Source: Sycon ciliatum (lineage: Eukaryota > Porifera > Calcarea > Leucosolenida > Sycettidae). From it: a stretch of DNA of 64,000 nucleotides. The translations under genes and the position numbers were made by a program. The stretch is taken from assembly GCF_964019385.1 (NCBI RefSeq), contig NC_088655.1, positions 12,005,922 through 12,069,921 of the forward strand. Direction: 5' to 3'. The stretch's first letter is position 1. Every line of letters begins with the position of its first letter. The notes beneath the pieces are model-generated. The model did no database searches and had not been told where the DNA came from. It saw only the letters and a list, made by a program, of their open reading frames with translations. Of this stretch, positions 9,413 through 59,321 are shown piece after piece.

Positions 9413-11084
<1,672 letters not shown>

Positions 11085-24035: not shown

Positions 24036-24067
24036 CGTTGTGTATGTTGGTTTGTTAGCATGACAGT

Positions 24068-25069
24068 TCAGGATTGATCATCACTGCCTCGCCGCGAAGT
24101 AGAAGACGACTTGTTACCTTGGGCATCAGCAAAGCGCCACTTTCGCACTGTATGCTGGATGGTGGCCGGCCAGAATTTGGAGTCGAGAACTTTGTCCTCG
24201 TCCGATGCTGCCACGGTTACGCGAGCATGGCTAGTACCCAGGTACGTGTTTTCTGAAATCGAACAGTTCAGTACGTCAACTTGGCGGGCCTTGCACCACG
24301 CTGTTATTGACTCTGCCCTGCAACCCGGACTGACATTTCCAACGTACAGAACAAGCTTCTTTGTACGTTCAGGCCCTGTTAGCACACGCGGGTCGGCTGC
24401 CCTGGGCTGTGGTTTCACGTGGCGTGACGTAACCCTACGGCGTGTGACTTCCGACCACTCTGCACCTGCAGCACTCGACCCTGGGTTGGATTGCTCAGGT
24501 GGGTGTGGTCTGGTGCCATGCATTGACAAAACAGGCTGCGACAAATGGCTGGAGGTGGTGTGAGCGGGGGTCATATGGTGAGTACTAGAACCCGTACTAC
24601 CCTGTGTGTACTGCATAGGACCAGAGGAAATATGGGTGCGTGCACGTGGGGGATTCAAGTCTCCTACGGCGGTGCTGTACAACTTCCCGCCGGACATTGC
24701 CAAATTTTGCTGTGCTTCCTGTACGAGAGGGTGTACACAGATTTCCGGTTGTTGGAGCCCCTGAACTTCCCGCCTGAGTTGTTGCACTTCTAATTCCAGA
24801 CTCAGGATTTTGTCGGCTCTATCCTGTCTCAAGGAGACAATTTCCTGTGACATGCAGCTAATTGAGTCAGTAAGGCTTACAATTGCAAGTTGGAGCTCCG
24901 ATGTGGGTAGCGAACTCTGCGCCAACACGCCCACTCCACGCTTCCTCAGCTCGCTCACCAGATCCGGCCGGGAGAGGCTCGAGGCTTTATCCACAGACAT
25001 TTGCTCGCCGATCTTGATGAGCTCCTCATAGCCAACCAAAGCCAGGTCCATGCCTTCGTTTGTCGCCAT
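24068..25069 (-). CDS. ORF1: RNA-binding gag-like protein of the CR1-like element
   Basis: 333 residues from ATG 25069. A Leu-rich region at about 70-115 (SLTDSISCMSQEIVSLRQDR, then LSLELEVQQLRREVQGL) is a predicted coiled coil. A Ser/Thr/Pro/His linker follows, then at about 235-320 an RRM-like domain beginning KKLVLYVGNVSPGCRAESI and ending FWPATIQHTVRKWRF. Coiled coil plus RRM-like fold is the usual LINE ORF1 plan; such proteins coat the element RNA in trimers. The frame is intact, ending 32 bases before ORF2. Confidence 0.82.
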   Translation of the reverse strand: MATNEGMDLALVGYEELIKIGEQMSVDKASSLSRPDLVSELRKRGVGVLAQSSLPTSELQLAIVSLTDSISCMSQEIVSLRQDRADKILSLELEVQQLRREVQGLQQPEICVHPLVQEAQQNLAMSGGKLYSTAVGDLNPPRARTHISSGPMQYTQGSTGSSTHHMTPAHTTSSHLSQPVLSMHGTRPHPPEQSNPGSSAAGAEWSEVTRRRVTSRHVKPQPRAADPRVLTGPERTKKLVLYVGNVSPGCRAESITAWCKARQVDVLNCSISENTYLGTSHARVTVAASDEDKVLDSKFWPATIQHTVRKWRFADAQGNKSSSTSRRGSDDQS

Positions 25070-25466
25070 TGGTACTGTTGGTCTCTTCTATTAGTTCTAA
25101 GCAATAATGGGGAGGGGTAGTTCTGTAGAGAGACGCACCTCGAGGCTAATCCTCGGAGCACAAAATGTCAAACCGCACCCTACTTTCACTTCGCGCGTTA
25201 TCATTATTTGAATCTACCTGGTACATGGTGCGCCTTTCAAGAGACTACTGAGTACTGGGAAGGTGTTGAGGTAAACGTCGCAAATGCGCTGCCAGAAGAT
25301 ATCACCTTTTTCTTCGAAGCGTGCACGCACATGTGGCAAAATGCAACGTCGGTCCCAATGCAGCCAGGAGAACTGGCCAAACCTCTCTGAGAACGACGAA
25401 ACACAACAGTTTTCACCCCATCGCTTTGGTCCAGTTTGGGCAGTGATAATCATGGTGATCTCTTGC

Positions 25467-26705
25467 ATTCAAATAGGGCTTTCAAACGCAAGATCATAAC
25501 GTGAAGCAACTTGGAAGAATAAGTATGAATGCGAAGTGTATGGGGGAATGCATGTAGGGCGATAGTTCGGGTTCGAATCCCAGGTAATGCCTGAAAAAAA
25601 AGAGAATTGAAAAATTTATAACATCCCTATTCTTTTTTTGCCGTCATCAAGGCGGTAGACGGTGTCGTATTACCCTCGACCGTACCTGTCCCGTACCTGT
25701 CCCGTACCTGTCCCATACCTATCCCCAACCGTACCGTACAATCAAAGACGGCTGGCCAAAATGCATATTCAAATAGGGCTTTCAAATATAAGATCATAAC
25801 ATGAAGCAACTTGGAAGAATACCGGTAAGTATGTATGCGAAGTGTATCGGGGATGCATGCAGGGCGATAGTGCGGGTTCGAATCCCAGGTTATGTCTAAA
25901 AACAAAAAGTAGAAATTTATAAGACTTTATAACAGCCCTATGCTTTTTTTTTCTAGGTCATCAAGGCAAAAAAGCATAGCGTAGGGCCCTGAGCTTCCAA
26001 GCTCTCTCGTTCCCGTAGCTATGCAGAAGACGTTACTTCAGTAACGTCTGGCGCTAGCCAGGGTCCACACAGCTTTAATTTGGTATTTGTGTGTTTGTTT
26101 GTTTGTTTGTGTCGCACCTGGCGCTATCCCGTATCTGTCCCGTACCGTACCGTACCATCAAACACAGCTGGCCACACACAGCTGGCCGCAATATTCAAAT
26201 AGGGCTTTCAAACGCAAGATCATAACGTGAAGCAACTTGGAAGAATGGGTATGAATGCGAAGTGTATGGGGAATGCATGTAGGGCGATAGTGCGGGTTTG
26301 AATCCCAGGATATGCCTGAACAAAAAAATAGCAGAATTGAAAAAATTAAAACATCCCTATGCTTTTTTTGCCGTCATCAAGGCGGTAGACGGTGTCGTAT
26401 TACCCTCGATCGTACCTGTCCCGTACCGTACCGTACCATCACAAAGACGGCTGGCCACAATGCATATTCAAATAGGGCTTTCAAATGCAAGATCATAACG
26501 TGAAGCAACTTGGAAGAATTAGTATGTATGCGAAGTGTATCGGGGGATGCATGCAGGGCGCGCGATAGTGCGGGTTCGAATCCCAGGTTATGTCTTAAAA
26601 AAAGGATTTTTTAAAGAATTTATAACATCCCTATGCTTTTTTTTGTCTAGGTTATCAAGGCAAAAAAGCATAGCGTAGGGCCCTGAGCTTCCAAGCTCTC
26701 TCGTA
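25467..26705 (+). repeat. Cluster of tRNA-like composite repeats (four tRNA-like cores)
   Basis: Four modules carry GGTTCGAATCC (one reads GGTTTGAATCC), the RNA polymerase III B-box, at 25570, 25875, 26295 and 26573. Each is preceded by ATTCAAATAGGGCTTTCAAA, AAGATCATAACGTGAAGCAA and TATGCGAAGTGTAT and followed by an A-rich stretch and CATCCCTATGCTTTTTTT. Between cores lie CCGTACCTGTC tandem units and, at 26010, the GACGTTAC hairpin head. The acceptor-like ends GGTAT/ATGCC can pair. Best read as tRNA-derived SINEs arranged in tandem with a second repeat. Confidence 0.6.
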
Positions 26706-29670: not shown

Positions 29671-30371
29671 CTGGGTCGTACTGACCCCATCACAAAATTC
29701 TTTTAACTTTTTTCAATCACTTGACAAGATATGCAGAATCTGGCCTGGAATTCTCTCAAAATCCCTGGATGGCACAAAAAAACGTGAAAAAGAGCTTTTT
29801 CCGCCAGAAAATGTTCTCTACGGGGCAGGATTCTGGCCTCTGCATACAGGACCGTGAGTTCGGACCCTGCAGTTGAATTTGTCTCTTAAACGGGCAATCA
29901 CAGAACATGGTATCACTGGCCTCACACAACAACTGAAGAAAAAGCAAAACAAAAACCAACAAAATAAGGTTTTTAAAGAAAAATGAAACTTGACTAGCAG
30001 TGTAGTTCGATCAGTCGGCGGGCGCTGTACCGTGCCTGTCGGTGCAGATTCTGCAGGCTGGTAAGGTTTTGAAAGTGCCGTGCGGAGTTCGAAGTGCGAG
30101 TGCGCAACGTACATGTGCATATTTTTTTAGAAAAACCAGGACATTGGAGTCACCTGGACCGGACAGAAATGTGACGTTTCTGGGAGTTTGCTTGAAATCC
30201 CCGGGATCACGGGAGCATTGTTGTTTTTTCCGGGATTTTCCCCAGGAATGGGAGGGTTGGCATGTATGCTGGGTGACTTGGGCAACAGTATGGTATTTAC
30301 CATACCACTTTTTTCTCAGGCACCCCGTGAATCCATAAAATACACTGATCTGTGCTTCAAATTTGCAACAG

Positions 30372-30745
30372 TTTCGCCTCGGCAACCCCTGCCCGCTCAC
30401 CATGCCAGCACACACCACCCTTCGACCAGGTGCGCTGAATGCGACCTATTTATGTACAGTGCTAGGTACATTAACCAGCACGTGACGCACCTGTGCCCAG
30501 CACTTGGACGTGGTCGGCCGATGGTGATCGAGTGCACGGCATGCGGCGGCTGCTTCAACGGGTACGAGGCGCTTCACAATCACCTCAGCGGCGGAGTGGA
30601 CGACGGTACCTACTGCTGTCCAACGGAGCACGCCAAATTTTACGTGTGTCGTCAGCCGCAGTGCGACTTCACGGCCTCTGACAATGAGGATTTCGCCAAC
30701 CATATCCAAGAACAACACCAGCACCGCCAGGTCAACCAGGCGTGA
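30372..30745 (+). CDS. Zinc-finger family copy B, terminal exon with three zinc-finger-like motifs
   Basis: Acceptor GCAACAG at 30371, stop TGA ending at 30745. Joined to the exon ending 27971 it reads AMQ-VSPRQPLPAHHAS with no frame break. Motif 1 is C-x2-C-x12-H (CAECDLF to NQHVTHLC, H-x2-H or H-x4-C). Motif 2 is C-x2-C-x12-H (CTACGGCF to LHNHLSGG) and lacks a clear fourth ligand. Motif 3 is C-x4-C-x12-H-x4-H (CRQPQC to NHIQEQH), a good C2H2 finger. Probably a nucleic-acid-binding or protein-binding nuclear protein; the exact family is not recognised. This is the intact relative of the satellite at 35-48 kb. Confidence 0.65.
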
Positions 30746-31300: not shown

Positions 31301-31500
31301 NNNNNNNNNNNNNNNNNNNNNNNNNNNNNNNNNNNNNNNNNNNNNNNNNNNNNNNNNNNNNNNNNNNNNNNNNNNNNNNNNNNNNNNNNNNNNNNNNNNN
31401 NNNNNNNNNNNNNNNNNNNNNNNNNNNNNNNNNNNNNNNNNNNNNNNNNNNNNNNNNNNNNNNNNNNNNNNNNNNNNNNNNNNNNNNNNNNNNNNNNNNN
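31301..31500. other. Assembly gap (200 N)
   Basis: Exactly 200 N, a conventional placeholder. The order and distance between copy B and the membrane-protein exon are therefore not guaranteed. Confidence 0.99.
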
Positions 31501-32469: not shown

Positions 32470-33049
32470 GTGTCGTCTACAGTCAAACCTGGTTAGGAAG
32501 AACACTGAAAAGTGTACTTTGAAAAGATCGCTTTAGAAGAACAAGAATTGATTACTCTATTGGATAAATCAGTGTGTTGTCGCTGGGAGAACTCCCGGTA
32601 TTGTGAACAAAAAGTTCAAGTCGATCCCTTGGTGTTCGTCCTAAAGAGGTTCGGCGGTAGATTTACACCAGTGGCACTGGACGCCACGCGTCGGTATGTC
32701 AAACTCTCGGCCATAACAGACGTCATGCAGTGCTGGGTCTGCTGGGCCTGGTATACCAGTACTCAGGAGGTGTAGACTCTATGGAGTATGGGTGTGAGTG
32801 TGAGTCAACTACAGAATCTTCACGATACTAATTATCGCACTCCGCGAACCGCCAACCGGCTTCCCTTTCACACGTGCAAATGACTATGTAAAGGAGTACA
32901 AGATTTGATGCGCTGTATAACCGGCTTCGTCGTCGACTAGTTTTCAACTCAAGAACGGACACCGTCAAACAGAGAGGTCTGTTCCGCTTCCCAAACCGTC
33001 TTGTCCTCCGGCAGCAACAGCAAACAGCAGCAGCCCAGCGCAAGGCCAA

Positions 33050-33260
33050 GAGGCAAGAGCATTGTCATGGGTACACAACATTTTCGTCCGCACTGCTCTC
33101 CGTCAGACCCTAGCCTTGTGCCCCTCATTCGGCATCGACCAGGCCGGAAAGGACGCGTCCGACGCAGTCTACCTATCGCTCGCCGCGCATCCAAACACTG
33201 GGCGAATGCAGCAACTAATACTTGCACCTGCGGCTCCGTTCGCGCCCCTTGCAATGCAAG
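33050..33260 (+). CDS. Zinc-finger family copy C: exon ending at the shared donor
   Basis: Open frame through SWVHNIFVRTALRQTLALCP, SFGIDQAGKDASDAVYLSLA, AHPNTGRMQQ and LILAPAAPFAPLAMQ to the shared donor GCAAG|GTAAGT. The first part is absent from copies A and B, so C may preserve more of an ancestral exon. A five-base difference from copy A near 33035 shifts the upstream FDALYNRLRRRLVF frame out of phase. There is no natural acceptor left downstream (see satellite), so function is doubtful. Confidence 0.35.
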
Positions 33261-33372
33261 GTAAGTGATGGACATTGTACATGTACAGTATGTATGCAGC
33301 GGTGACTAGAACTTAGCGGGTGTTCAGCACACTTGACTTCTAGAGTTTCGTTTTCTGAAGAGGTGGCTTATT

Positions 33373-33812
33373 TGTATTCGATATTTCTGAAGACTGTATT
33401 ATTGTACCACAAGGAGCGTAACGATTCCACAAAAGGCGATCGTTCAAACCAGGTAACAACAAAGAGCAAACTAAACTCAAAACCAAAACCAAAACAACAA
33501 CTGCACCAGCAAGCTCTTTCCTTGCACTAACTACAAATACATCAAAAACCAAGCAGCAAAATGCAAATCCGCACGCATGTTTGCCGGAACTGAACCTCCG
33601 TAGCGCAGCTGATCATCGCGGCTGCACTGGACGACCTTCCCGCCACAGTAGGGCAAAGAACTATGCATGGAACTAGCAATGAATGCATGCAGCACACCAG
33701 CAAGCTGTCCCTACGCAGACGTCTAGTCTAGCGTGAGCAAGGATGAAATTGAATAGCATGAGAAACATGATAAGACACATTGACTCCTAGGATGCATGCA
33801 ATGTATACAACA
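33373..33812. mobile_element. Probable solo LTR, 440 bp
   Basis: Begins TGTATTCG and ends ATACAACA (TG...CA), flanked by TTATT on both sides (33368-33372, 33813-33817). Copies B and D read GTGGCTTATTCGCTACGAG or GTGGCTTATTCACTACGAG without it, so it is an insertion with a 5-bp duplication. No internal protein sequence; LTR identity is inferred from ends and duplication length only. Confidence 0.5.
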
Positions 33813-33907
33813 TTATTCACTACGAGTTACGGAATCACCTGGTAACAGAGACCACACTTCGAAGGTCCCTTGAGCGGTCGTCTTACACAGGTTTCACTGT
33901 ATGCATA

Positions 33908-34092
33908 CAGTCAGTCAGCTTGGCTAATAACGACTGCGGATATAACGACAATTGGCGAATAACGACAGAATTTCCATGCCCAGAGCAAAGTCACTGTAAT
34001 ACATAAAATGAGACTTCGGGTATAACGACACTTTGCGAATAACGACACCGTGTTGATGCCCCGTAGAGTGTCGTTATAAGCGAAGTTGACTG
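33908..34092. mobile_element. Tc1/mariner (pogo-like) miniature element
   Basis: Inverted ends CAGTCAGCTTGGCTAATAAC (offset by a CAGT duplication) and CAGTCAACTTCGCTTATAAC on the other strand, TA on both sides, several AATAACGACA/TATAACGACA blocks inside. A separate end-type fragment, ACAGGTTTCACTGTA, lies just before it. Confidence 0.7.
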
Positions 34093-34330
34093 TATGCGCC
34101 GATGACCTTCACCTTTGACGCCCATCACTGGGGGCGATGATAGCGATAGCGGAAGCCATAGCAACTTGTGCTGGAGTTGCACCATTCAACAGCTTGCAAG
34201 GCAGAAGAATTCACTGCCACAATTCAGCATGGTCTACGCCACAAAGCTATTGAAGTGACTTGACTTGCAGTGCAGTTCGAAAAGTCGGCGAGCGCCTAGC
34301 GTGCCTGTCGGTGCAGATCAGCCCTTTCCC

Positions 34331-34914
34331 AAAGATGCTCGCCACTTTTTTCGCAACTTCTCGTTGTTTAGGAAGAAATCGCAACCTTCGCAACTTTCTT
34401 CATTTTTTTCTGTTTCTGGCTAGTACCAGTTCTATCGCACTTATCAATCATCCTTATTGGCGTCACGCCATCGTGGAATAAAGGAATAAAGACTATAATT
34501 TTAAAGATAAAGATTTTCCCGAACTATTTCGCAACTTTTCCGCAACCTTAGCGCATGGGGTCAAAAGGTCAAGTTACACACTCACCGACTACATGTCGGA
34601 CAAATACCAACTCGTACTCGCTCATTTCTCGCCTGCCTTCAGACTGATTTCAGAGAAACAATAGATCAACGGTAGTTGTGATAATGTGCACTGAAGTAAT
34701 AGTTCCCTTTTCCTGGCACTGGAATGATGTACATGTACATGTAGGATACAGTCATGTGTAGGATACATGTGTAGGATACATGTGTAGGATACATGCAACA
34801 GGCTACTGAGTACTGGCACTGTGTAAAGTGGTGGTTCACAGCAGGAAGGGGTGTAGACCTACGAGTTTGCTGTCGATGCACTTCTGCTATTTCTGCTCTC
34901 TTTTTCGTAGGTTT
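34331..34914. other. Unassigned sequence with a short minisatellite
   Basis: 34730-34795 has four or five units of ATGTGTAGGATAC after an alternating ACATGTACATG stretch. The rest holds no recognisable frame. Confidence 0.45.
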
Positions 34915-35140
34915 TGCACAAGAACTCTACAATTCTGTGCGCAGCACTTGGACGTAGTCGGCCGATGGTGATCCAGTGCACGGCATGAGGCGGCTCTTTC
35001 AATGGGTACGGCGCACTTCAGAATCACGTCAGCGGCGGAGTGGACGACGGCATATACAATTGTCCGATGGAGCACGCCAAATTCTATGTTTGTCGTCAGC
35101 TGCAGTGCAATTTCACGGCCTCTCACAATGAGGACTTTAT
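34915..35140 (+). pseudogene. Degenerate zinc-finger exon copy at the left of the satellite
   Basis: Follows copy B residues CPALGRGRPMVIECTACGGC through the third finger CRQPQC. It reads RPMVIQCTA-stop-GGSFNGY, DDGIYNCPMEHAKFYVCRQL and QCNFTASHNEDF, then breaks into a (TTA)n run at 35137. Includes the third-finger part that the satellite units lack. An in-frame TGA makes it a pseudogene. Confidence 0.7.
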
Positions 35141-35160
35141 TATTATTATTATTATATAAT

Positions 35161-35371
35161 TATATTAACCAGCACGTGACGCATCTGTGCCCAGCACTTG
35201 GACGTAGTCGGTCGATGGTGATGGAGTGCACGGCATACGACCTCTTTATGTACAGTACCAGGTACATTAACCAGCACGTGAAGCATCTGTGTCCAGCACT
35301 TGGACGTAGTCGGCCGATGGTGATCGAGTGCAAGGCATGCGACCTCTTTTAAGTCTTTATGTACAGTACCA
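35161..35371 (+). repeat. 102-bp single-finger tandem units, left edge of the satellite
   Basis: Two units of about 102-111 bases, each starting AACCAGCACGTG and ending ACCAGGTACATT, joined in frame so that TAYDLFMYSTRYINQHV links one finger to the next. 102 bases is 34 codons. The unit can be explained by recombination between the C-x2-C pairs of fingers 1 and 2. Confidence 0.8.
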
Positions 35372-38300
35372 GGTACATTAACCAGCACGTGATGCATCTG
35401 TGCCCAGCACTTGGACGTAGTCGGCCGATGGTGATCGAGCGCACGGCATGCGGCGACTGCTTCAACGGGTACGACGCGCTTCACAATCATCTCAGCGGCG
35501 GAGTGGACGACGCCACATGTGCATATTTTTGAAAAAACCAGGACATTGGAGTGAACTGGACCGGACAGAAATGTGACGTTTCTGGGAGTTTGCTCATCAC
35601 ACCAGCAAACACCACCCTTCGACCAAGTGCGTGGAATGCGACTTATTTATGTTCGACGACAGGTACATTAACCAGCACGTGACACATCTGTGCCCAGCAC
35701 TTGGACGTAGTCGGCCGATGGTGATCGAGTGCACGGCATGCGGCGGCTGCTTCAACGGGTACGACGCGCTTCACAATCACCTCAGCGGCGGAGTGGACGA
35801 CGGCACATGTGCATATTTGTGCATAATCACACCAGCAAACACCACCCTTGGACCAAGTGCGTGGAATGCGACTTATTTATGTTCGACGTCAGGTACATTA
35901 ACCAGCACGTGACACATCTGTGCCCAGAACTTGGACGTAGTCGGCCGATGGTGATCGGGTGCACGGCATACGGCGGCTGCTTCAACGGGTGCGACGTGCT
36001 TCACAATCACCTCAGCGGCGGAGTGGACGACGGCACATGTGCATATTTTTGAATAAACCAGGACATTGGAGTGAACTGGACCGGACAGAAATGTGACGTT
36101 TCTGGGAGTTTGCTCATCACACCAGCAAACACCACCCTTCGACCAAGTGCGTGGAATGCGACTTATTTATGTTCGACGACAGGTACATTAACCAGCACGT
36201 GACACATCTGTGCCCAGCACTTGGACGTAGTCGGCCGATGGTGATCGAGTGCACGGCATGCGGCGGCTGCTTCAACGGGTACGACGCGCTTCACAATCAC
36301 CTCAGCGGCGGAGTGGACGACGGCACATGTGCATATTTTTGAAAAAACCAGGACATTGGAGTGAACTGGACCGGACAGAAATGTGACGTTTCTGGGAGTT
36401 TGCTCATCACACCAGCAAACACCACCCTTCGACCAAGTGCGTGGAATGCGACTTATTTATGTTCGACGACAGGTACATTAACCAGCACGTGACACATCAG
36501 CGCCCAGCACTTGGACGTAGTCGGCCGATGGTGATCGAGTGCACGGCATGCGGCGGCTGCTTCAACGGGTACGACGTGCTTCACAAGCACCTCAGCGGCG
36601 GAGTGGACGACGGCATATGTGCATATTTTTGAAAAAACCAGGACATTGGAGTGAACTGGATCGGACAGAAATGTGACGTTTCTGGGAGTTTGCTCATCAC
36701 ACCAGCAAACACCACCCTTCGACCAAGTGCGTGGAATGCGACTTATTTATGTTCGACGACGGGTACATTAACCAGCACGTGACACATCTGTGCCCAGCAC
36801 TTGGACGTAGTCGGCCGATGGTGATCGAGTGCACGGCATGCGGCGGCTGCTTCAACGGGTACGACGCGCTTCACAATCACCTCAGCGGCGGAGTGGACGA
36901 CGGCACATGTGGATATTTTTGAAAAAACAAGGACATTGGAGTGAACTGGACCGGACAGACATGTGACGTTTCTGGGAGTTTGCTCATCACACCAGCAAAC
37001 ACCACCCTTCGACCAAGTGCGTGGAATGCGACCTATTTATGTTCGACGACAGGTACATTAACCAGCACGTGACACATCTGTGCACAGCACTTGGACGTAG
37101 TCGGCCGATGGTGCTCGAGTGCACGGCATGCGGCGGCTGCTTCAACGGGTACGACGCGCTTCACAATCACCTCAGCGGCAGAGTGGACGACGGCACATGT
37201 GCATATTTTTGAAAAAACCAGGACATTGGAGTGAACTGGACCGGACAGAAATGTGACGTTTCTGGGAGATTGCTCATCACACCAGCAAACACCACCCTTC
37301 GACCAAGTGCGTGGAATGCGACTTATTTATGTTCGACGACAGGTACATTAACCAGCACGTGACACATCTGTGCCCAGCACTTGGACGTAGTCGGCCGATG
37401 GTGATCGAGTGCACGGCATGCGGCGGCTGCTTCAACGGGTACGGCGCGCTTCACAATTACCTCAGCGGCGGAGTGGACGACGGCACATGTGCATATTTTT
37501 GAAAAAACCAGGACATTGGAGTGAACTGGACCGGACAGAAAAGTGACATTTCTGGGAGTTTGCTCATCACACCAGCAAACACCACCCTTCGACCAAGTGC
37601 GTGGAATGCGACTTATTTATGTTCGACGACAGGTACATTAACCAGCACGTGACACATCTGTGCCCAGCACTTGGACGTAGTCGGCCGATGGTGATCGAGT
37701 GCACGGCATGCGGCGGCTGCTTCAACGGGTACGACGCCCTTCACAATCACCTCAGCGGCGGAGTGGACGACGGCACATGTGCATATTTTTGAAAAAACCA
37801 GGACATTGGAGTGAACTGGACCGGACAGAAATGTGACGTTTCTGGGAGTTTGCTCATCACACCAGCAAATACCACCCTTCGACCAAGTGCGTGGAATGCG
37901 ACTTATTTATGTTCGACGACAGGTACATTAACCAGCACGTGACACATCTGTGCCCAGCACTTGGACGAAGTCGGGCGATGGTGATCGAGTGCACGGCATG
38001 CGGCGGCTGCTTCAACGGGTACGATGCGCTTCACAATCACCTCAGCGGCGGAGTGGACGACGGCACATGTGCATATTTTTGAAAAAAACCAGGACATTGG
38101 AGTGAACTGGACCGGATAGAAATGTGACGTTTCTGGGAGTTTGCTCATCACACCAGCAAACACCACCCTTCGACCAAGTGCGTGGAATGCGACCTATTTA
38201 TGTTCGACGACAGGTACATTAACCAGCACGTGACACATCTGTGCCCAGCACTTGGACGTAGTCGGCCGATGGTGATCGAGTGCACGGCATGCGGCGGCTG

Positions 38301-41300
38301 CTTCAACGGGTACGACGCGCTTCACAATCACCTCAGCGGCGGAGTGGACGATGGCACATGTGCATATTTTTGAAAAAACCAGGACATTGGAGTGAACTGG
38401 ACCGGAAAGAAATGTGACGTTTCTGGGAGATTGCTCATCACACCACCAAACACCACCCTTCGACCAAGTGCGTGGAATGCGACCTATTTATGTTCGACGA
38501 CAGGTACATTAACCAGCACGTGACACATCTGTGCCCAGCACTTGGACGTAGTCGGCCGATGGTGATCGAGTGCACGGCATGCGGCGGCTGCTTCAACGAG
38601 TACGGCGCGCTTCACAATCACCTCAGCGGCGGAGTGGACGACGGCACATGTGCATATTTTTGAAAAAACCAGGACATTGGAGTGAACTGGACCGGACAGA
38701 AATGTGACATTTCTGGGAGTTTGCTCATCACACCAGCAAACACCACCCTTCGACCAAGTGCGTGGAATGCGACTTATTTATGTTCGACGACAGGTACATT
38801 AACCAGCACGTGACACATCTGTGCCCAGCACTTGGACGTAGTCGGCCGATGGTGATCGAGTGCACGGCATGCGGCGGCTGCTTCAACGGGTACGACGCCC
38901 TTCACAATCACCTCAGCGGCGGAGTGGACGACGGCACATGTGCATATTTTTGAAAAAACTAGGACATTGGAGTGAACTGGACCGGATAGAAATGTGACGT
39001 TTCTGGGAGTTTGCTCATCACACCAGCAAACACCACCCTTCGACCAAGTGCGTGGAATGCGACCTATTTATGTTCGACGACAGGTACATTAACCAGCACG
39101 TGACACATCTGTGCCCAGCACTTGGACGTAGTCGGCCGATGGTGATCGAGTGCACGGCATGCGGCGGCTGCTTCAACGGGTACGACGCGCTTCACAATCA
39201 CCTCAGCGGCGGAGTGGACGATGGCACATGTGCATATTTTTGAAAAAACCAGGACATTGGAGTGAACTGGACCGGAAAGAAATGTGACGTTTCTGGGAGA
39301 TTGCTCATCACACCACCAAACACCACCCTTCGACCAAGTGCGTGGAATGCGACCTATTTATGTTCGACGACAGGTACATTAACCAGCACGTGACACATCT
39401 GTGCCCAGCACTTGGACGTAGTCGGCCGATGGTGATCGAGTGCACGGCATGCGGCGGCTGCTTCAACGAGTACGGCGCGCTTCACAATCACCTCAGCGGC
39501 GGAGTGGACGACGGCACATGTGCATATTTTTGAAAAAACCAGGACATTGGAGTGAACTGGACCGGACAGAAATGTGACATTTCTGGGAGTTTGCTCATCA
39601 CTCCAGCAAACACCACCCTTCGACCAAGTGCGTGGAATGCGACTTATTTATGTTCGACGACAGGTACATTAACCAGCACGTGACACATCTGTGCCCAGCA
39701 CTTGGACGTAGTCGGCCGATGGTGATCGAGTGCACGGCATGCGGCGGCTGCTTCAACGGGTACGACGCCCTTCACAATCACCTCAGCGGCGGAGTGGACG
39801 ACGGCACATGTGCATATTTTTGAAAAAACTAGGACATTGGAGTGAACTGGACCGGAAAGAAATGTGACGTTTCTGGGAGTTTGCTCATCACACCAGCAAA
39901 CACCACCCTTCGACCAAGTGCGTGGAATGCGACTTATTTATGTTCGACGACAGGTACATTAACCAGCACGTGACACATCTGTGCCCAGCACTTGGACGTA
40001 GTCGGCCGATGGTGATCGAGTGCACGGCATGCGGCGGCTGCTTCAACGGGTACGACGCCCTTCACAATCACCTCAGCGGCGGAGTGGACGACGGCACATG
40101 TGCATATTTTTGAAAAAACTAGGACATTGGAGTGAACTGGACCGGAAAGAAATGTGACGTTTCTGGGAGTTTGCTCATCACACCAGCAAACACCACCCTT
40201 CGACCAAGTGCGTGGAATGCGACTTATTTATGTTCGACGACAGGTACATTAACCAGCACGTGACACATCTGTGCCCAGCACTTGGACGTAGTCGGCCGAT
40301 GGTGATCGAGTGCACGGCATGCGGCGGCTGCTTCAACGGGTACGACGCCCTTCACAATCACCTCAGCGGCGGAGTGGACGACGGCACATGTGCATATTTT
40401 TGAAAAAACTAGGACATTGGAGTGAACTGGACCGGAAAGAAATGTGACGTTTCTGGGAGTTTGCTCATCACACCAGCAAACACCACCCTTCGACCAAGTG
40501 CGTGGAATGCGACTTATTTATGTTCGACGACAGGTACATTAACCAGCACGTGACACATCTGTGCCCAGCACTTGGACGTAGTCGGCCGATGGTGATCGAG
40601 TGCACGGCATGCGGCGGCTGCTTCAACGGGTACGGCGCGCTTCACAATCACCTCAGCGGCGGAGTGGACGACGGCACATGTGCATATTTTTGAAAAAACC
40701 AGGACATTGGAGTGAACTGGACCGGAAAGAAATGTGACGTTTCTGGGAGATTGCTCATCACACGACCAAACACCACCCTTCGACCAAGTGCGTGGAATGC
40801 GACCTATTTATGTTCGACGACAGGTACGTTAACCAGCACGTGACACATCTGTGCCCAGCACTTGGACGTAGTCGGCCGATGGTGATCGAGTGCACGGCAT
40901 GCGGTGGCTGCTTCAACGGGTACGGCGCGCTTCACAATCACCTCAGCGGCGGAGTGGACGACGGCACATGTGAATATTTTTGAAAAAACCAGGACATTGG
41001 AGTGAACTGGACCGGACAGAAATGTGACGTTTCTGGGAGTTTGCTCATCACACCAGCAAACACCACCCTTCGACCAAGTGCGTGGAATGCGACTTATTTA
41101 TGTTAGACGACAGGTACATTAACCAGCACGTGACACATCTGTGCCCAGCACTTGGACGAAGTCGGCCGATGGTGATCGAGTGCACGGCATGCGGCGGCTG
41201 CTTCAACGGGTACGATGCGCTTCACAATCACCTCAGCGGCGGAGTGGACGACGGCACATGTGCATATTTATGAAAAAAACCAGGACATTGGAGTGAACTG

Positions 41301-44300
41301 GACCGGATAGAAATGTGACGTTTCTGGGAGTTTGCTCATCACACCAGCAAACACCACCCTTCGACCAAGTGCGTGGAATGCGACCTATTTATGTTCGACG
41401 ACAGGTACATTAACCAGCACGTGACACATCTGTGCCCAGCACTTGGACGTAGTCGGCCGATGGTGATCGAGTGCACGGCATGCGGCGGCTGCTTCAACGG
41501 GTACGACGCGCTTCACAATCACCTCAGCGGCGGAGTGGACGATGGCACATGGGCATATTTTTGAAAAAACCAGGACATTGGAGTGAACTGGACCGGAAAG
41601 AAATGTGACGTTTCTGGGAGATTGCTCATCACACCACCAAACACCACCCTTCGACCAAGTGCGTGGAATGCGACCTATTTATGTTCGACGACAGGTACGT
41701 TAACCAGCACGTGACACATCTGTGCCCAGCACTTGGACGTAGTCGGCCGATGGTGATCGAGTGCACGGCATGCGGCGGCTGCTTCAACGGGTACGGCGCG
41801 CTTCACAATCACCTCAGCGGCGGAGTGGACGACGGCACATGTGAATATTTTTGAAAAAACCAGGACATTGGAGTGAACTGGACCGGACAGAAATGTGACG
41901 TTTCTGGGAGTTTGCTCATCACACCAGCAAACACCACCCTTCGACCAAGTGCGTGGAATGCGACTTATTTATGTTCGCTGACAGGTACATTAACCAGCAC
42001 GTGACACATCTGTGCCCAGCACTTGGACGAAGTCGGCCGATGGTGATCGAGTGCACGGCATGCGGCGGCTGCTTCAACGGGTACGATGCGCTTCACAATC
42101 ACCTCAGCGGCGGAGTGGACGACGGCACATGTGCATATTTATGAAAAAAAACAGGACATTGGAGTGAACTGGACCGGATAGAAATGTGACGTTTCTGGGA
42201 GTTTGCTCATCACACCAGCAAACACCACCCTTCGACCAAGTGCGTGGAATGCGACCTATTTATGTTCGACGACAGGTACATTAACCAGCACGTGACACAT
42301 CTGTGCCCAGCACTTGGACGTAGTCGGCCGATGGTGATCGAGTGCACGGCATGCGGCGGCTGCTTCAACGGGTACGACGCGCTTCACAATCACCTCAGCG
42401 GCGGAGTGGACGATGGCACATGTGCATATTTTTGAAAAAACCAGGACATTGGAGTGAACTGGACCGGAAAGAAATGTGACGTTTCTGGGAGATTGCTCAT
42501 CACACCACCAAACACCACCCTTCGACCAAGTGCGTGGAATGCGACCTATTTATGTTCGACGACAGGTACGTTAACCAGCACGTGACACATCTGTGCCCAG
42601 CACTTGGACGTAGTCGGCCGATGGTGATCGAGTGCACGGCATGCGGCGGCTGCTTCAACGGGTACGGCGCGCTTCACAATCACCTCAGCGGCGGAGTGGA
42701 CGACGGCACATGTGCATATTTTTGAAAAAACCAGGACATTGGAGTGAACTGGACCGGACAGAAATGTGACATTTCTGGGAGTTTGCTCATCACACCAGCA
42801 AACACCACCCTTCGACCAAGTGCGTGGAATGCGATTTATTTATGTTCGACGACAGGTACATTAACCAGCACGTGACACATCTGTGCCCAGCACTTGGACG
42901 AAGTCGGCCGATGGTGATCGAGTGCACGGCATGCGGCGGCTGCTTCAACGGGTACGATGCGCTTCACCATCACCTCAGCGGCGGAGTGGACGACGGCACA
43001 TGTGCATATTTTTGAAAAAAACCAGGACATTGGAGTGAACTGGACCGGATAGAAATGTGACGTTTCTGGGAGTTTGCTCATCACACCAGCAAACACCACC
43101 CTTCGACCAAGTGCGTGGAATGCGACCTATTTATGTTCGACGACAGGTACATTAACCAGCACGTGACACATCTGTGCCCAGCACTTGGACGTAGTCGGCC
43201 GATGGTGATCGAGTGCACGGCATGCGGCGGCTGCTTCAACGGGTACGACGCGCTTCACAATCACCTCAGCGGCGGAGTGGACGATGGCACATGTGCATAT
43301 TTTTGAAAAAACCAGGACATTGGAGTGAACTGGACCGGAAAGAAATGTGACGTTTCTGGGAGATTGCTCATCACACCACCAAACACCACCCTTCGACCAA
43401 GTGCGTGGAATGCGACCTATTTATGTTCGACGACAGGTACGTTAACCAGCACGTGACACATCTGTGCCCAGCACTTGGACGTAGTCGGCCGATGGTGATC
43501 GAGTGCACGGCATGCGGCGGCTGCTTCAACGGGTACGGCGCGCTTCACAATCACCTCAGCGGCGGAGTGGACGACGGCACATGTGCATATTTATGAAAAA
43601 AACCAGGACATTGGAGTGAACTGGACCGGATAGAAATGTGACGTTTCTGGGAGTTTGCTCATCACACCAGCAAACACCACCCTTCGACCAAGTGCGTGGA
43701 ATGCGACCTATTTATGTTCGACGACAGGTACATTAACCAGCACGTGACACATCTGTGCCCAGCACTTGGACGTAGTCGGCCGATGGTGATCGAGTGCACG
43801 GCATGCGGCGGCTGCTTCAACGGGTACGGCGCGCTTCACAATCACCTCAGCGGCGGAGTGGACGATGGCACATGTGCATATTTTTGAAAAAACCAGGACA
43901 TTGGAGTGAACTGGACCGGAAAGAAATGTGACGTTTCTGGGAGATTGCTCATCACACCACCAAACACCACCCTTCGACCAAGTGCGTGGAATGCGACCTA
44001 TTTATGTTCGACGACAGGTACGTTAACCAGCACGTGACACATCTGTGCCCAGCACTTGGACGTAGTCGGCCGATAGTGATCGAGTGCACGGCATGCGGCG
44101 GCTGCTTCAACGGGTACGGCGCGCTTCACAATCACCTCAGCGGCGGAGTGGACGACGGCACATGTGCATATTTTTGAAAAAACCAGGACATTGGAGTGAA
44201 CTGGACCGGACAGAAATGTGACGTTTCTGGGAGTTTGCTCATCACACCAGCAAACACCACCCTTCGACCAAGTGCGTGGAATGCGACTTATTTATGTTCG

Positions 44301-47300
44301 ACGACAGGTACATTAACCAGCACGTGACACATCTGTGCCCAGCACTTGGACGTAGTCGGCCGATGGTGATCGAGTGCACGGCATGCGGCGGCTGCTTCAA
44401 CGGGTACGACGCGCTTCACAATCACCTCAGCGGCGGAGTGGACGATGGCACATGTGCATATTTTTGAAAAAACCAGGACATTGGAGTGAACTGGACCGGA
44501 AAGAAATGTGACGTTTCTGGGAGATTGCTCATCACACCACCAAACACCACCCTTCGACCAAGTGCGTGGAATGCGACCTATTTATGTTCGACGACAGGTA
44601 CGTTAACCAGCACGTGACACATCTGTGCCCAGCACTTGGACGTAGTCGGCCGATGGTGATCGAGTGCACGGCATGCGGCGGCTGCTTCAACGGGTACGGC
44701 GCGCTTCACAATCACCTCAGCTGCGGAGTGGACGACGGCACATGTGCATATTTTTGAAAAAACCAGGACATTGGAGTGAACTGGACCGGACAGAAATGTG
44801 ACGTTTCTGGGAGTTTGCTCATCACACCAGCAAACACCACCCTTCGACCAAGTGCGTGGAATGCGACTTATTTATGTTCGACGACAGGTACATTAACCAG
44901 CACGTGACACATCTGTGCCCAGCACTTGGACGAAGTCGGCCGATGGTGATCGAGTGCACGGCATGCGGCGGCTGCTTCAACGGGTACGATGCGCTTCACA
45001 ATCACCTCAGCGGCGGAGTGGACGACGGCACATGTGCATATTTATGAAAAAAACCAGGACATTGGAGTGAACTGGACCGGATAGAAATGTGACGTTTCTG
45101 GGAGTTTGCTCATCACACCAGCAAACACCACCCTTCGACCAAGTGCGTGGAATGCGACCTATTTATGTTCGACGACAGGTACATTAACCAGCACGTGACA
45201 CATCTGTGCCCAGCACTTGGACGTAGTCGGCCGATGGTGATCGAGTGCACGGCATGCGGCGGCTGCTTCAACGGGTGCGACGCGCTTCACAATCACCTCA
45301 GCGGCGGAGTGGACGATGGCACATGTGCATATTTTTGAAAAGACCAGGACATTGGAGTGAACTGGACCGGAAAGAAATGTGACGTTTCTGGGAGATTGCT
45401 CATCACACCACCAAACACCACCTTTCGACCAAGTGCGTGGAATGCGACCTATTTATGTTCGACGACAGGTACGTTAACCAGCACGTGACACATCTGTGCC
45501 CAGCACTTGGACGTAGTCGGCCGATGGTGATCGAGTGCACGGCATGCGGCGGCTGCTTCAACGGGTACGGCGCGCTTCACAATCACCTCAGCGGCGGAGT
45601 GGACGACGGCACATGTGCATATTTTTGAAAAAAACCAGGACATTGGAGTGAACTGGACCGGATAGAAATGTGACGTTTCTGGGAGTTTGCTCATCACACC
45701 AGCAAACACCACCCTTCGACCAAGTGCGTGGAATGCGACCTATTTATGTTCGACGACAGGTACATTAACCAGCACGTGACACATCTGTGCCCAGCACTTG
45801 GACGTAGTCGGCCGATGGTGATCGAGTGCACGGCATGCGGCGGCTGCTTCAACGGGTACGACGCGCTTCACAATCACCTCAGCGGCGGAGTGGACGATGG
45901 CACATGTGCATATTTTTGAAAAAACCAGGACATTGGAGTGAACTGGACTGGAAAGAAATGTGACGTTTCTGGGAGATTGCTCATCACACCACCAAACACC
46001 ACCCTTCGACCAAGTGCGTGGAATGCGACCTATTTATGTTCGACGACAGGTACGTGAACCAGCACGTGACACATCTGTGCCCAGCACTTGGACGTAGTCG
46101 GCCGATGGTGATCGAGTGCACGGCATGCGGCGGCTGCTTCAACGGGTACGGCGCGCTTCACAATCACCTCAGCGGCGGAGTGGACGACGGCACATGTGCA
46201 TATTTTTGAAAAAACCAGGACATTGGAGTGAACTGGACCGGACAGAAATGTGACATTTCTGGGAGTTTGCTCATCACACCAGCAAACACCACCCTTCGAC
46301 CAAGTGCGTGGAATGCGATTTATTTATGTTCGACGACAGGTACATTAACCAGCACGTGACACATCTGTGCCCAGCACTTGGACGAAGTCGGCCGATGGTG
46401 ATCGAGTGCACGGCATGCGGCGGCTGCTTCAACGGGTACGATGCGCTTCACAATCACCTCAGCGGCGGAGTGGACGACGGCACATGTGCATATTTTTGAA
46501 AAAACCAGGACATTGGAGTGAACTGGACCGGATAGAAATGTGACGTTTCTGGGAGTTTGCTCATCACACCAGCAAACACCACCCTTCGACCAAGTGCGTG
46601 GAATGCGACCTATTTATGTTCGACGACAGGTACATTAACCAGCACGTGACACATCTGTTCCCAGCACTTGGACGTAGTCGGCCGATGGTGATCGAGTGCA
46701 CGGCATGCGGCGGCTGCTTCAACGGGTACGACGCGCTTCACAATCACCTCAGCGGCGGAGTGGACGATGGCACATGTGCATATTTTTGAAAAAACCAGGA
46801 CATTGGAGTGAACTGGACCGGAAAGAAATGTGACGTTTCTGGGAGATTGCTCATCACACCACCAAACACCACCCTTCGACCAAGTGCGTGGAATGCGACC
46901 TATTTATGTTCGACGACAGGTACGTTAACCAGCACGTGACACATCTGTGCCCAGCACTTGGACGTAGTCGGCCGATGGTGATCGAGTGCACGGCATGCGG
47001 CGGCTGCTTCAACGGGTACGGCGCGCTTCACAATCACCTCAGCGGCGGAGTGGACGATGGCACATGTGCATATTTTTGAAAAAACCAGGACATTGGAGTG
47101 AACTGGACCGGACAGAAATGTGACGTTTCTGGGAGTTTGCTCATCACACCAGCAAACACCACCCTTCGACCAAGTGCGTGGAATGCGACTTATTTATTTT
47201 CGACGACAGGTACATTAAGCAGCACGTGACACATCTGTGCCCAGCACTTGGACGAAGTCGGCCGATGGTGATCGAGTGCACGGCATGCGGCGGCTGCTTC

Positions 47301-47866
47301 AACGGGTACGATGCGCTTCACAATCACCTCAGCGGCGGAGTGGACGACGGCACATGTGCATATTTTTGAAAAAAACCAGGACATTGGAGTGAACTGGACC
47401 GGATAGAAATGTGACGTTTCTGGGAGTTTGCTCATCACACCAGCAAACACCACCCTTCGACCAAGTGCGTGGAATGCGACCTATTTATGTTCGACGACAG
47501 GTACATTAACCAGCACGTGACACATCTGTGCCCAGCACTTGGACGTAGTCGGCCGATGGTGATCGAGTGCACGGCATGCGGCGGCTGCTTCAACGGGTAC
47601 GACGCGCTTCACAATCACCTCAGCGGCGGAGTGGACGATGGCACATGTGCATATTTTTGAAAAGACCAGGACATTGGAGTGAACTGGACCGGAAAGAAAT
47701 GTGACGTTTCTGGGAGATTGCTCATCACACCACCAAACACCACCCTTCGACCAAGTGCGTGGAATGCGACCTATTTATGTTCGACGACAGGTACGTTAAC
47801 CAGCACGTGACACATCTGTGCCCAGCACTTGGACGTAGTCGGCCGATGGTGATCGAGTGCACGGCA
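35372..47866 (+). repeat. 290-bp satellite array derived from the zinc-finger exon, about 43 units
   Basis: Unit coding starts fall at 35631, 35861, 36151 and then every 290-291 bases to 47759. Each unit has about 190 coding bases (fingers 1 and 2: CVECDLFMFDDRYINQHVTH to HLSGGVDDGTCAYF, then TGA) and about 100 bases of spacer matching copy B intron (CAGGACATTGGAGTGAACTG to TCTGGGAGTTTGCTC). Unit 35631 to 35861 is 230 bases (60-base spacer deletion). From 37.9 kb on, units follow an a-b-c pattern repeating about every 871 bases. All units keep the finger frame open; length changes are confined to the A run after the stop. Units have no ATG before the first Cys (GTG precedes GAATGC). Confidence 0.95.
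35631..35822 (+). CDS. Representative satellite unit ORF (two-finger fragment)
   Basis: Typical of the 42 unit ORFs: in-frame TGA in the spacer, then WEFAHHTSKHHPSTKCVECD, finger 1 (C-x2-C-x12-H-x2-H), finger 2 (C-x2-C-x12-H), a Gly-Val-Asp-Asp-Gly turn, CAY and, in most units, F then TGA; in this first unit, with its shortened spacer, the frame continues to 35912. The first in-frame ATG is the FMFDD methionine, so a free-standing protein would lack the first Cys pair. The native splice acceptor of copy B is deleted from the unit, so splicing into these exons would need the weak ACACCAG before the frame. Expression is unproven; likely relic coding sequence. Confidence 0.4.
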
Positions 47867-48109
47867 TGCGACCTCTTTATGTACAGTACCAGGTATTAAC
47901 CAGCACGTGAAGCATCTGTGGCCAGCACTTGGACGTAGTTGGCCAATGGTGATCGAGTGCACGGCATGCGACCTTTTTTGTACAGTACCAGGTACATTAA
48001 CCAGCACGTGACGCATCTGTGCCCAACACTTGGACGTAGTCGGCCGATGGTGATCGAGTGCACGGCATACGACCTCTTTATGTACAGTACCAGGTACATT
48101 AACCAGCAC
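47790..48109 (+). repeat. 102-bp single-finger tandem units, right edge of the satellite
   Basis: Three units starting AACCAGCACGTG at about 47799, 47899 and 48000, carrying DLFMYSTRYINQHV-type sequence like the left edge, with one small deletion. The array stops inside a fourth unit at 48109 where a hAT-like element sequence begins. Confidence 0.8.
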
Positions 48110-49056
48110 AGCATGGAAAATGCTCGAAAATCATGATCATAATGCTGATTTTATGTTGCTATTGCTCCATTATGCCAGCAAAACAGCAATAGTATGCATG
48201 GAAAATGGCTTAGTTTGGCTGCCCTCCCGCCATAGCCAATGCACTAATGCTACCTGACTGTATAAACATCAGCTGCTCCCACCCCACATTTGACTTGTAG
48301 TGGCCAAAACTTTCATATTTGAGTATAATGCCACTTTTGTGGAATTCTAGTGTTATAATGCTAGCATAATGCTCGTTGCAAATCGCACACTGTACGAGGT
48401 GAATTGCTATTTCTGGACATTGTACATTTCTGGACATTTCGAGTAAAATAATTTTTTGTCGCGTGTAGAGTCAAGTCAATCAGGTTGATGAAGTTTTTTT
48501 CTTGTTGTAGTTGACAGCTGGGCCGTTGTAGTTTCTCCTCGTGTCCGTGCCTTGTTGATAGCCTTTTCTTGGGAGGCATTTCAACCGTGCGGCGAGTTTT
48601 GTGGTATTATGTCGCATAAGAATTTTGAATTTTGAGTAAAATAAGAAGTAATGGACGAATCGTTGGCTTCCCCATGTGCACTCCACTTCAGACGCTGTAT
48701 AGTCTTGGACCTGTTGGCTGGAAGTGTGAAGAGGCCAACTGCAGTCCACCAATAAAAAAAATAACAAAAATGGTGCAGTATGGTGCCTATTGACGCTATT
48801 TTACTTTCATGTCCAGAATTCCATACACTGAAATTTAGGCCAAAAAATTGGCCTGTCGAAAACAACCTGCTATAAAGTCTCTGGGATCACAGCATGAGCA
48901 ATTGTCACATATTTGGAAAGATGAAAGATTAGGCCATACAATAGATACAAACAGATATGAAAAATGTAAAACACACAGCCAGTGGGCCTCTATTTTATTT
49001 TCATGTCCAGAAATTGCTATTCACCTCGTAATGCTAGCATTATCCGCCCAGGCCTA
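48110..49056. mobile_element. hAT-like miniature element, interrupted
   Basis: Right end ATAATGCTAGCATTATCCGC-type sequence terminating CCCAGGCCTA at 49056; body 48110-48394 is an inverted match to 55250-55545. Interrupted by the TA-flanked element 48395-49028. The left end is missing or lies inside the satellite junction. Confidence 0.65.
48395..49028. mobile_element. Tc1/mariner-like element nested in the hAT-like element
   Basis: Inverted ends CGAGGTGAATTGCTATTTCT and, on the other strand, CGAGGTGAATAGCAATTTCT, each followed by GGACAT, with TA on both sides (48393-48394, 49029-49030). The copy at 55217-55300 is uninterrupted at the same place, confirming the insertion. 634 bases, no transposase frame. 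Confidence 0.75.
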
Positions 49057-55216: not shown

Positions 55217-55545
55217 TAGGCCTGGGCGGATAATGCTAGCATTATAAGTAGCATTAATAGTGTGCGATTTGCAACGAGCATTATGCTAGCATTATAACAC
55301 TACATTTCCACAAAAGTGGCATTATACTCAAATATGAAAGTGTTGGCCACTACAAGTCAAATGTGGGGTGGGAGCAGCTGATGTTTGTACAGTCAGATAG
55401 CATTAGTGCATTGGCTATGGCGGGAGGGCAGCCAAACTAAGCCATTTTCCATGCATACTATTGCGGTTTTGCTGGCATTATGGAGCAATAGCAGCATAAA
55501 ATCAGCATTATGATCATGATTTTCTACCCTTTTCCATGCCATCTA
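55217..55545. mobile_element. hAT-like miniature element, one end
   Basis: Left end TAGGCCTGGGCGGATAATGC followed by TAGCATTATAAG; body matches 48110-48394 inverted. No matching right end: after TTTTCCATGCC the sequence is unrelated. Confidence 0.6.
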
Positions 55546-55904: not shown

Positions 55905-56165
55905 AACCAGCAATAGGTGCCTAAGGCGAGTATTTGGCCATGATCCGTATACTTCTATCGATTTCATTCTCACCAAATACTACCTGTATACTTTCTCTCG
56001 CCGTGTAAACTTGAAGCTGTTTGTATTTGTTTTTAGGTGTCTATCCCGTTTAACGATATTTACCCCCGCTCTGCATCATGCCGCACAAATGCTGCTACCC
56101 GCGGTCAAGCTTCAGCTTCCCAGTAAAAAGGCAACGCCTGTTGGGAGTTCCCTAGTAAAATAACG
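55905..56165 (+). pseudogene. CR1-like non-LTR 3' fragment
   Basis: Reads NRCLRRVFGHDPYTSIDFIL, YTFSRRVNLKLFVFVFRCLS and RLTIFTP, parallel to NRALRIVFSMPRFSDVSLV and QFKLYILVFRVLNQLTT at 4853-5285. Ends GCCTGTTGGGAGTTCCCTAG then TAAAATAA, the shared 3' end. The final 60 codons before the end are deleted. Confidence 0.7.
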
Positions 56166-57180
56166 AGAGAGCCTTGAAGCTCAGGGCCCTACTATACTAG
56201 TACGGTATGCTTTTTTGCCTTGATGACTTAGACAAAAAAAAGAATAGGGATGTTATAAATTCTTATAAATTTCTACTTTTTGTTTTTAGACATACCGGTA
56301 ACCTGGGATTCGAACCCGCACTATCGCCCTGCATGCATTCCCCAATACACTTCGCATACATACTAATTCTTCCAAGTTGCTTCACGTTATGATCTTGTAT
56401 TTGAAAGCCCTATCTGAATATGCATTGTGGCCAGCCGTCTTTTGATTGTACGGTACGGTACGGGACAGTTACGGGACAGGTACGGGACAGGTACGGTCGA
56501 GGGTAATACGACACCATCTACTGCCTTGATGACGGCAAAAAAAGAATAGGGATGTTATAAATTTTTCAATTCTTCTATTTTTTCACGCATTACCGGGGAT
56601 TCGAACCCGCACTATCGCCCTACATGCATTCCCCCATACACTTCGCATTCATACTCATTCTTCCAAGTTGCTTCACGTTATGATCTTGCGTTTGAAAGCC
56701 CTATTTGAATAGTGCGGCCAGCTGTATGTGGCCAGCTGTGTTTGATGGTACGGTACGATACGGGACAGATACGGGATAGCGCCAGGCGTGACACAAACAG
56801 ACAAACACACAAACACCAAACGAGAGAGCTTGGAAGCTCAGGGCCCTACGCTATGCTTTTTTGCCTTGATGACCTAGACAAAAAAAGCATAGGGATGTTA
56901 TAAATTCTTTAAAAAAATCCTTTTTTTAGACATAACCTGGGATTCGAACCCGCACTATCGCGCGCCCTGCATGCATTCCCGATACACTTCGCATTCATAC
57001 CCATTCTTCCAAGTTGTTTCACATTGTGATCTTGCATTTGAAAGCCCTATTTGAATATGTATTGTGGCCAGCCGTCTTTGATGGCACGGTACGGTAGGGG
57101 ATAGGTACGGGACAGGTACGATCGAGGGTAATACGACACTCCCGTACCGTACCGTACCATCAAACACAGCTGGCCACAAA
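56166..57180 (-). repeat. Cluster of tRNA-like composite repeats, inverted relative to 25467-26705
   Basis: Three cores with GGATTCGAACC (B-box on the minus strand) at 56307, 56597 and 56940, with the same flanks as at 25.5-26.7 kb in reverse order, GGTACGGGACAGGTACGG tandem units, and CAAGCTCTCTCGTT/ACGAGAGAGCTTGGAAGC joints. Confidence 0.6.

Positions 57181-58731: not shown

Positions 58732-59321
<590 letters not shown>

Follow-up and report, generated by a model that had tools for sequence, protein, structure and literature searches.

The window analysed here is a stretch of 64,000 nucleotides from Sycon ciliatum (C14:12005922-12069921, in a genome sequence of 538 Mb and 313 contigs). Positions are window coordinates, those above 64000 lying on the same contig to the right of the window, and features are on the forward strand unless otherwise stated. 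A self-comparison of 144 kb, parts of which read N, was restricted to match rows of at least 200 bp, with the array and simple repeats masked, and we read these rows as six partial copies of one gene region. Their boundaries, which are BLAST edges, place them at about 14.4-18.8 kb, 27.8-31.3 kb (copy B), 32.5-48 kb (the copy with the array described below) and 61.9-67.5 kb, with copies 5 and 6 starting near 69.5 and 79.3 kb. Copy B carries the parental type of zinc-finger exon (30374-30745), the frame of which is open to its own stop; the start of this exon is putative, and its presumed splice acceptor is recognised by the letters CAACAG ahead of the open stretch. Four zinc-finger-type Pfam matches were obtained in copy B, all below the cut-off. 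A phmmer search of the PDB returned no significant solved relative of the exon (best E-value 0.036 among the 50 sequences listed); the list is made up mostly of viral haemagglutinins and includes two zinc-finger proteins, ZAP1 (E = 0.15) and REF6 (E = 0.59). When the genome was searched at the protein level with the 116 amino acids of the exon, at least 63 matches were obtained; all lie on C14, within 12036316-12089842, and among them the copy B match alone covers the whole query.

The array is carried by a segmental duplication (32477-35452); its pieces, which precede the array, have matches of 91-98% in copies 5 and 6, beyond the right end of the window. The array itself lies between two pieces of a different repeat, a minisatellite of about 102 bp in which finger 2 of the zinc-finger exon is fused to finger 1. 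The left piece occupies 35161-35449 and the right one, from the same exon, 47868-48109; a remainder of exon (35356-35515) runs into the first satellite junction. Among ten pieces of this minisatellite four carry indels (+9, -2, -1 and +1), and it looks like an abandoned expansion of finger number. The same repeat, of 34 codons, is also present at 82078-82457.

Several other elements share the window. The copy B exon is closely followed on its right by a run of 200 Ns (31301-31500), likely a scaffold gap. A probable non-LTR retrotransposon lies on the reverse strand at 21003-25087, with an open frame of 1024 amino acids that matches endonuclease and reverse transcriptase and a further open frame of 339 amino acids upstream. 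Two triplet arrays consist of 100% matches, ACT repeated 147 times at 9413-9853 and CAA repeated about 197 times at 58732-59321. Two 281-bp copies, 96% identical and inverted with respect to one another, are found at 48111-48391, adjoining the right edge of the minisatellite, and at 55259-55539, and a repeat-rich element, with piecewise identities of 74-93%, is present in inverted orientation at 25467-26704 and 56162-57139.

An array of exon-intron units

Tandem Repeats Finder reports 41.5 copies of a 290-bp repeat with 97% matches at 35826-47870. When unit starts were anchored individually, 43 were found head to tail, from 35596 to 47724, of which 41 belong to full-length units (290 or 291 bp, most of them 290 bp). 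The unit at 35596 is 60 bp short and the unit at 47724 is cut at 47866, and with a piece of junction plus intron that precedes the first start (35516-35595) the satellite extends over 35516-47866. A sequence-only reading of this DNA had counted about 43 tandem units of 290-291 bp, in agreement with the anchored starts, and had placed the beginning of the array at 35372. The satellite is there as described, but its first exon-intron junction lies near 35516, and the part of 35161-35515 that had been counted in is the different repeat of about 102 bp followed by exon, not satellite proper.

Each unit consists of about 211 bp of exon and about 80 bp of intron. The exon part corresponds to 30405-30609 of copy B (190 of 205 positions identical) and is 92-98% identical to the seven exon copies compared, over 143-214 columns. 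The intron part corresponds to 30111-30192 of copy B, upstream of the zinc-finger exon (76 of 82 columns identical). The unit had been read as a zinc-finger exon with a spacer; the exon was correctly recognised, but the spacer is a stretch of the gene's own intron. The order of the two parts is swapped in the array: one junction leads from exon to intron, the other from intron to exon. This second junction, at which the letters GCT are shared, omits positions 30193-30397 of copy B, that is, the end of the intron with the acceptor presumed from the sequence and the start of the exon.

A 21-base pattern of the exon-intron junction, allowing up to 2 mismatches, matches 45 times in the genome sequence, stretches reading N aside, and all 45 matches are on C14; 43 are in this array and one each in copies 5 and 6, and the junction was not found elsewhere in the genome sequence. 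The reversed control pattern matches twice. A query of two units gave 15 matches, all on the contig of the array. As regards a possible derivation of the unit from a dispersed mobile element, the queries used genome-wide were the two units, the exon and the junction, and all of their matches lie on this contig; common words are passed over when DNA is searched. By its anatomy and its evolution the array is satellite DNA, and it is local in the genome sequence.

The zinc-finger frame and its variation

The zinc-finger frame (unit positions 3-224, taking in about 13 intron-derived bases) contains neither a stop nor an indel in any of the 41 full units, as had been noted for the coding part in the sequence-only reading. 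Immediately past the junction there is an in-phase TGA in all 41 full units, and among the 42 units that reach this site only the shortened unit at 35596 is without it. The consensus unit has no in-frame ATG ahead of finger 1, and a stop is present a few codons upstream. Since the presumed acceptor and the start of the exon are also missing, neither splicing nor a start in the manner of the parental exon would be expected of a unit. A read-through protein with many fingers is ruled out by the TGA in each full unit.

It may nevertheless be asked whether the frame is kept by selection, each single unit of a transcribed array being translated into a small zinc-finger peptide, and the distribution of substitutions bears on this. 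The 41 full units differ by 59 distinct variants, 46 in the 222 positions of the frame and 13 in the other 68, which correspond to densities of 0.207 and 0.191 per base (p = 0.88). If the exon-derived bases alone are considered, there are 42 variants in 209 (33 non-synonymous and 9 silent) and 17 in the remaining 81. Of the 46 frame variants, 37 are non-synonymous, 9 are silent (10.7 expected) and none is a stop (1.2 expected; the probability of no stop is 0.30). These expectations use the observed ratio of transitions to transversions with no CpG effect; a CpG weight of 3 leads to 27% silent expected as against 23%. Codon positions 1, 2 and 3 are represented in the proportion 13:17:16, with no excess at the third. 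A dN/dS-like ratio calculated from the distinct variants, not from a tree, is 1.25, and for the 32 singletons in the frame it is 2.9, with 3 silent changes where 7.5 were expected (p = 0.06). The sequence-only reading had pointed to many silent differences; the four that it named (positions 48, 113, 173 and 206) are confirmed, but only 9 of the 46 frame variants are silent, and the selection on the frame that it had offered as one possibility is not supported by the substitutions, given their equal density, the 37 non-synonymous changes among 46 and the ratio of 1.25.

Between the gene copies the same exon behaves differently. In 13 of 15 pairs dN/dS is between 0.15 and 0.47, and in the other two it is 0.61 and 0.83; codons with a stop in either copy were skipped in these comparisons, three of the five other copies carrying a stop in the compared stretch. 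When the gene copies are compared with the unit consensus, the values range from 0.07 to 0.50. Fisher tests of the array counts against five copy pairs gave p values of 0.021, 0.006, 0.005, 0.11 and 0.19, with 18:11 used in one row in place of 18.5:10.5. The exon thus bears the mark of past purifying selection, and the variation within the array does not show such a mark. With low dN/dS among the gene copies and no constraint within the array, the clean frame of the units looks as if it had been inherited from a gene under purifying selection.

The indels are less easily read. Two indel events were found in the array, an A insertion in an A-run and the 60-bp deletion, and both are outside the finger frame, as had been reported. 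The absence of indels beside 46 frame variants is significantly low with respect to four of eight local controls. Against the array's own spacer, with 2 indels to 13 substitutions, the Fisher p value is 0.057; against the exon pairs it is 0.17 (copies B and 4) and 0.34 (copies B and 5a); and against copies 5 and 6, with 1:28, it is 0.39. Against the 102-bp minisatellite (4:23) it is 0.016, and against three flank alignments it is 0.013 (3:12), 0.00002 (9:15) and 0.0001 (6:10), the minisatellite and flank counts being dependent on the gap costs used. As the flanks are non-exonic and the exon has few indels outside the array, the make-up of the sequence may explain part of this shortage. With these mixed controls the indels do not decide the matter in favour of neutrality. 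Equal rates at coding and spacer positions, which the sequence-only reading would have taken as evidence for purely neutral homogenisation, were therefore found for substitutions but not clearly for indels, and the contrast in indels that it described between coding part and spacer holds in placement but is significant only against half of the controls.

Of nine Cys and His codons tested, six show no change in any of the 41 full units, which tells against neutrality, though on small numbers, and the others are altered in single units: codon 32 in the units at 36406 and 46563, codon 48 in that at 35826 and codon 61 in that at 37276. Translation into single-unit peptides would account for the open frames, for the positions of the two indels and for the shortage of indels against four of the eight controls, but it is at odds with the unconstrained substitutions in both variant classes, the even spread over codon positions, the TGA and missing ATG, and these altered ligand codons. 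We consider it very unlikely that selection for such peptides keeps the frame. A protein function of the array is unlikely in general, and its absence is something that we infer.

A further possibility is that an RNA from the array, and not a protein, acts on the parental genes, for example as small RNAs directed against the zinc-finger family. Su(Ste) and Stellate of Drosophila provide a model for array-derived small RNAs that act against a gene family. The close identity of the exon part to the seven exon copies would allow such targeting, but no Rfam family reached the gathering score in the window, in a search that is blind to small RNAs. A candidate role of this kind strikes us as highly improbable. 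The same search disposes of a ribozyme-bearing satellite, hammerhead or other, because no Rfam ribozyme was present at the gathering score in the window.

Origin and homogenisation of the satellite

Copies 5 and 6 contain an arrangement from which the unit could have arisen. In both, the intron reads ...GAGTGCGCAC, followed by about 110 bp of exon, followed by ACATGTGC... of the same intron. At the equivalent point copies B and 4 have the uninterrupted GCGCAACGTACATGTGC and GCGCACCGTACATGTGC, and copy 1 is without this stretch. Since the intron is uninterrupted in copies B and 4, the exon piece is an insertion at one intron point. It is flanked by short shared letters, GCAC on the left and AC on the right. 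On the right it ends in the junction found in the satellite units, and at its own left edge it has three mismatches to the unit. Copy 6 continues across the intron part and enters the second junction of the unit, and copy 5 becomes unreadable just ahead of that junction. Over shared stretches, the closest matches to the exon part of the unit are in copy 5 (140 of 143 and 152 of 156) and copy 6b (151 of 156), and copies 4 (201 of 214), B (190 of 205) and 6a (158 of 171) are less near. In copy 6 a deletion has removed 8 bp of the inserted piece, as judged against copy 5 and the satellite unit, and the frame of this piece is not kept.

Judging from these sequences, copies 5 and 6 likely show the founding event, in which part of the exon was inserted into the intron of the same gene. 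The order of events and the recombination mechanism, which we infer from the junctions, may be outlined as follows. In one member of the tandem cluster, about 110 bp of the zinc-finger exon would have been copied, without change of orientation, into the intron that precedes it, as a templated insertion during break repair or template switching, at the shared GCAC and AC. A deletion would have joined intron to exon at GCT, taking away the presumed acceptor. The insert and the exon would then be direct repeats about 290 bp, or one unit, apart, so that unequal exchange between them would yield a tandem duplication of just this unit, and further exchange or replication slippage could have extended it into an array. 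Exchange with the 102-bp exon minisatellite may have set the present edges, in which case the position of the array between two pieces of that repeat is expected. The opposite order, with the array first and the insertion derived from it, might also apply, copies 5 and 6 reading N beyond the insertion. The position of the insertion at an otherwise continuous point of the intron favours insertion before array.

The present structure of the array is consistent with continued exchange, which would have homogenised the units and generated a higher-order organisation. The mean difference is 7.4 positions (2.6%) between any two of the 41 full units and 1.4 positions (0.5%) between any two of the 11 units of type X, which supports the recent homogenisation proposed in the sequence-only reading. 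From 38147 to 47723 the types X, Y and Z, with an earlier type W, recur mostly in a three-unit and sometimes in a two-unit order. For all 41 full units the mean difference at a lag of three is 5.61, compared with 7.43 after shuffling, and for the 33 units from 38147, a cut that was picked after the types had been seen, it is 4.97 compared with 6.86; in neither case was a value as low obtained in 5000 shuffles. Because of this higher-order structure, variants shared between units are not independent events. At the left edge (35826-38146) the 8 full units are richer in private variants, with a mean of 2.75 as against 0.52 in the other 33 (p = 0.003).

These patterns also bear on whether the array might be a product of the assembler or have the wrong length. 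The 200-base N run 4 kb upstream of the array and the use of one assembly would be compatible with such an error, and the exact copy number is unproven; but the 41 full units comprise 36 different sequences, and this variety, their ordered three-unit pattern and their private variants argue against it, and we regard an artefact as extremely unlikely. On the basis of this assembly it is quite probable that the array is a young, local satellite that arose by templated insertion of an exon, was amplified by unequal exchange, has evolved largely neutrally since then and is probably non-coding. It is also conceivable, though decidedly improbable, that we see a satellite near its birth in which the templated insertion of exon into intron armed a zinc-finger copy for amplification, and that the array now influences in trans the neighbouring exons, to which it is about 92-98% identical, by way of RNA or by donating sequence in gene conversion.

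Relation to known tandem repeats

Primate alpha satellite is organised in higher-order repeats (for such repeats see PMC5615363). The array resembles it in its head-to-tail units, its types in repeating order, its homogenised middle and its more divergent edge. Satellites of this kind commonly, though not necessarily, form many arrays and lie in heterochromatin or at centromeres; the present array differs in that it is a single locus of 12 kb in a gene cluster with a gene-derived unit. According to a review, satellites could in theory arise from any sequence, and rDNA spacers and transposable elements are listed among their seeds (PMC5615363). Like the satellites so described, this array has turned a pre-existing sequence into a unit. 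Unlike them, its seed is an exon-intron junction of one gene, and this junction is kept in related copies.

Two coding repeats offer a further comparison. The units of the D4Z4 macrosatellite carry the whole frame of the gene DUX4, and in the present array, likewise, the reading frame of a DNA-binding domain is found in every unit; but here the consensus has no start ahead of finger 1, the junction interrupts the frame, and no constraint is seen in the substitutions. PRDM9 contains a coding zinc-finger minisatellite, in which the finger exon is multiplied in tandem. Sequence from a finger exon is tandemly repeated here also, and the 102-bp repeat on either side has a consensus length divisible by three, but the 290-bp unit breaks the frame and stops in every full copy. 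At the level of titles and abstract openings, we found no case of a satellite made from a zinc-finger exon in the literature. The source of the array is unusual, as is the extent to which its origin can still be read.

As a whole, the sequence-only observation stands in its account of the units, the open frame and the placement of the indels, but not in the start of the array, the nature of the spacer or the weight given to silent changes. This outcome carries a caution, namely that a frame unbroken over dozens of units can be inherited and is alone no proof of selection. The origin of a satellite from unique sequence can seldom be read, because homogenisation erases the start. In the present case a span of about 70 kb contains the parental exon and intron, the two junctions with the short letters that they share, the copies that bear the insertion and the higher-order structure, so that the proposed steps can be tested in related species.
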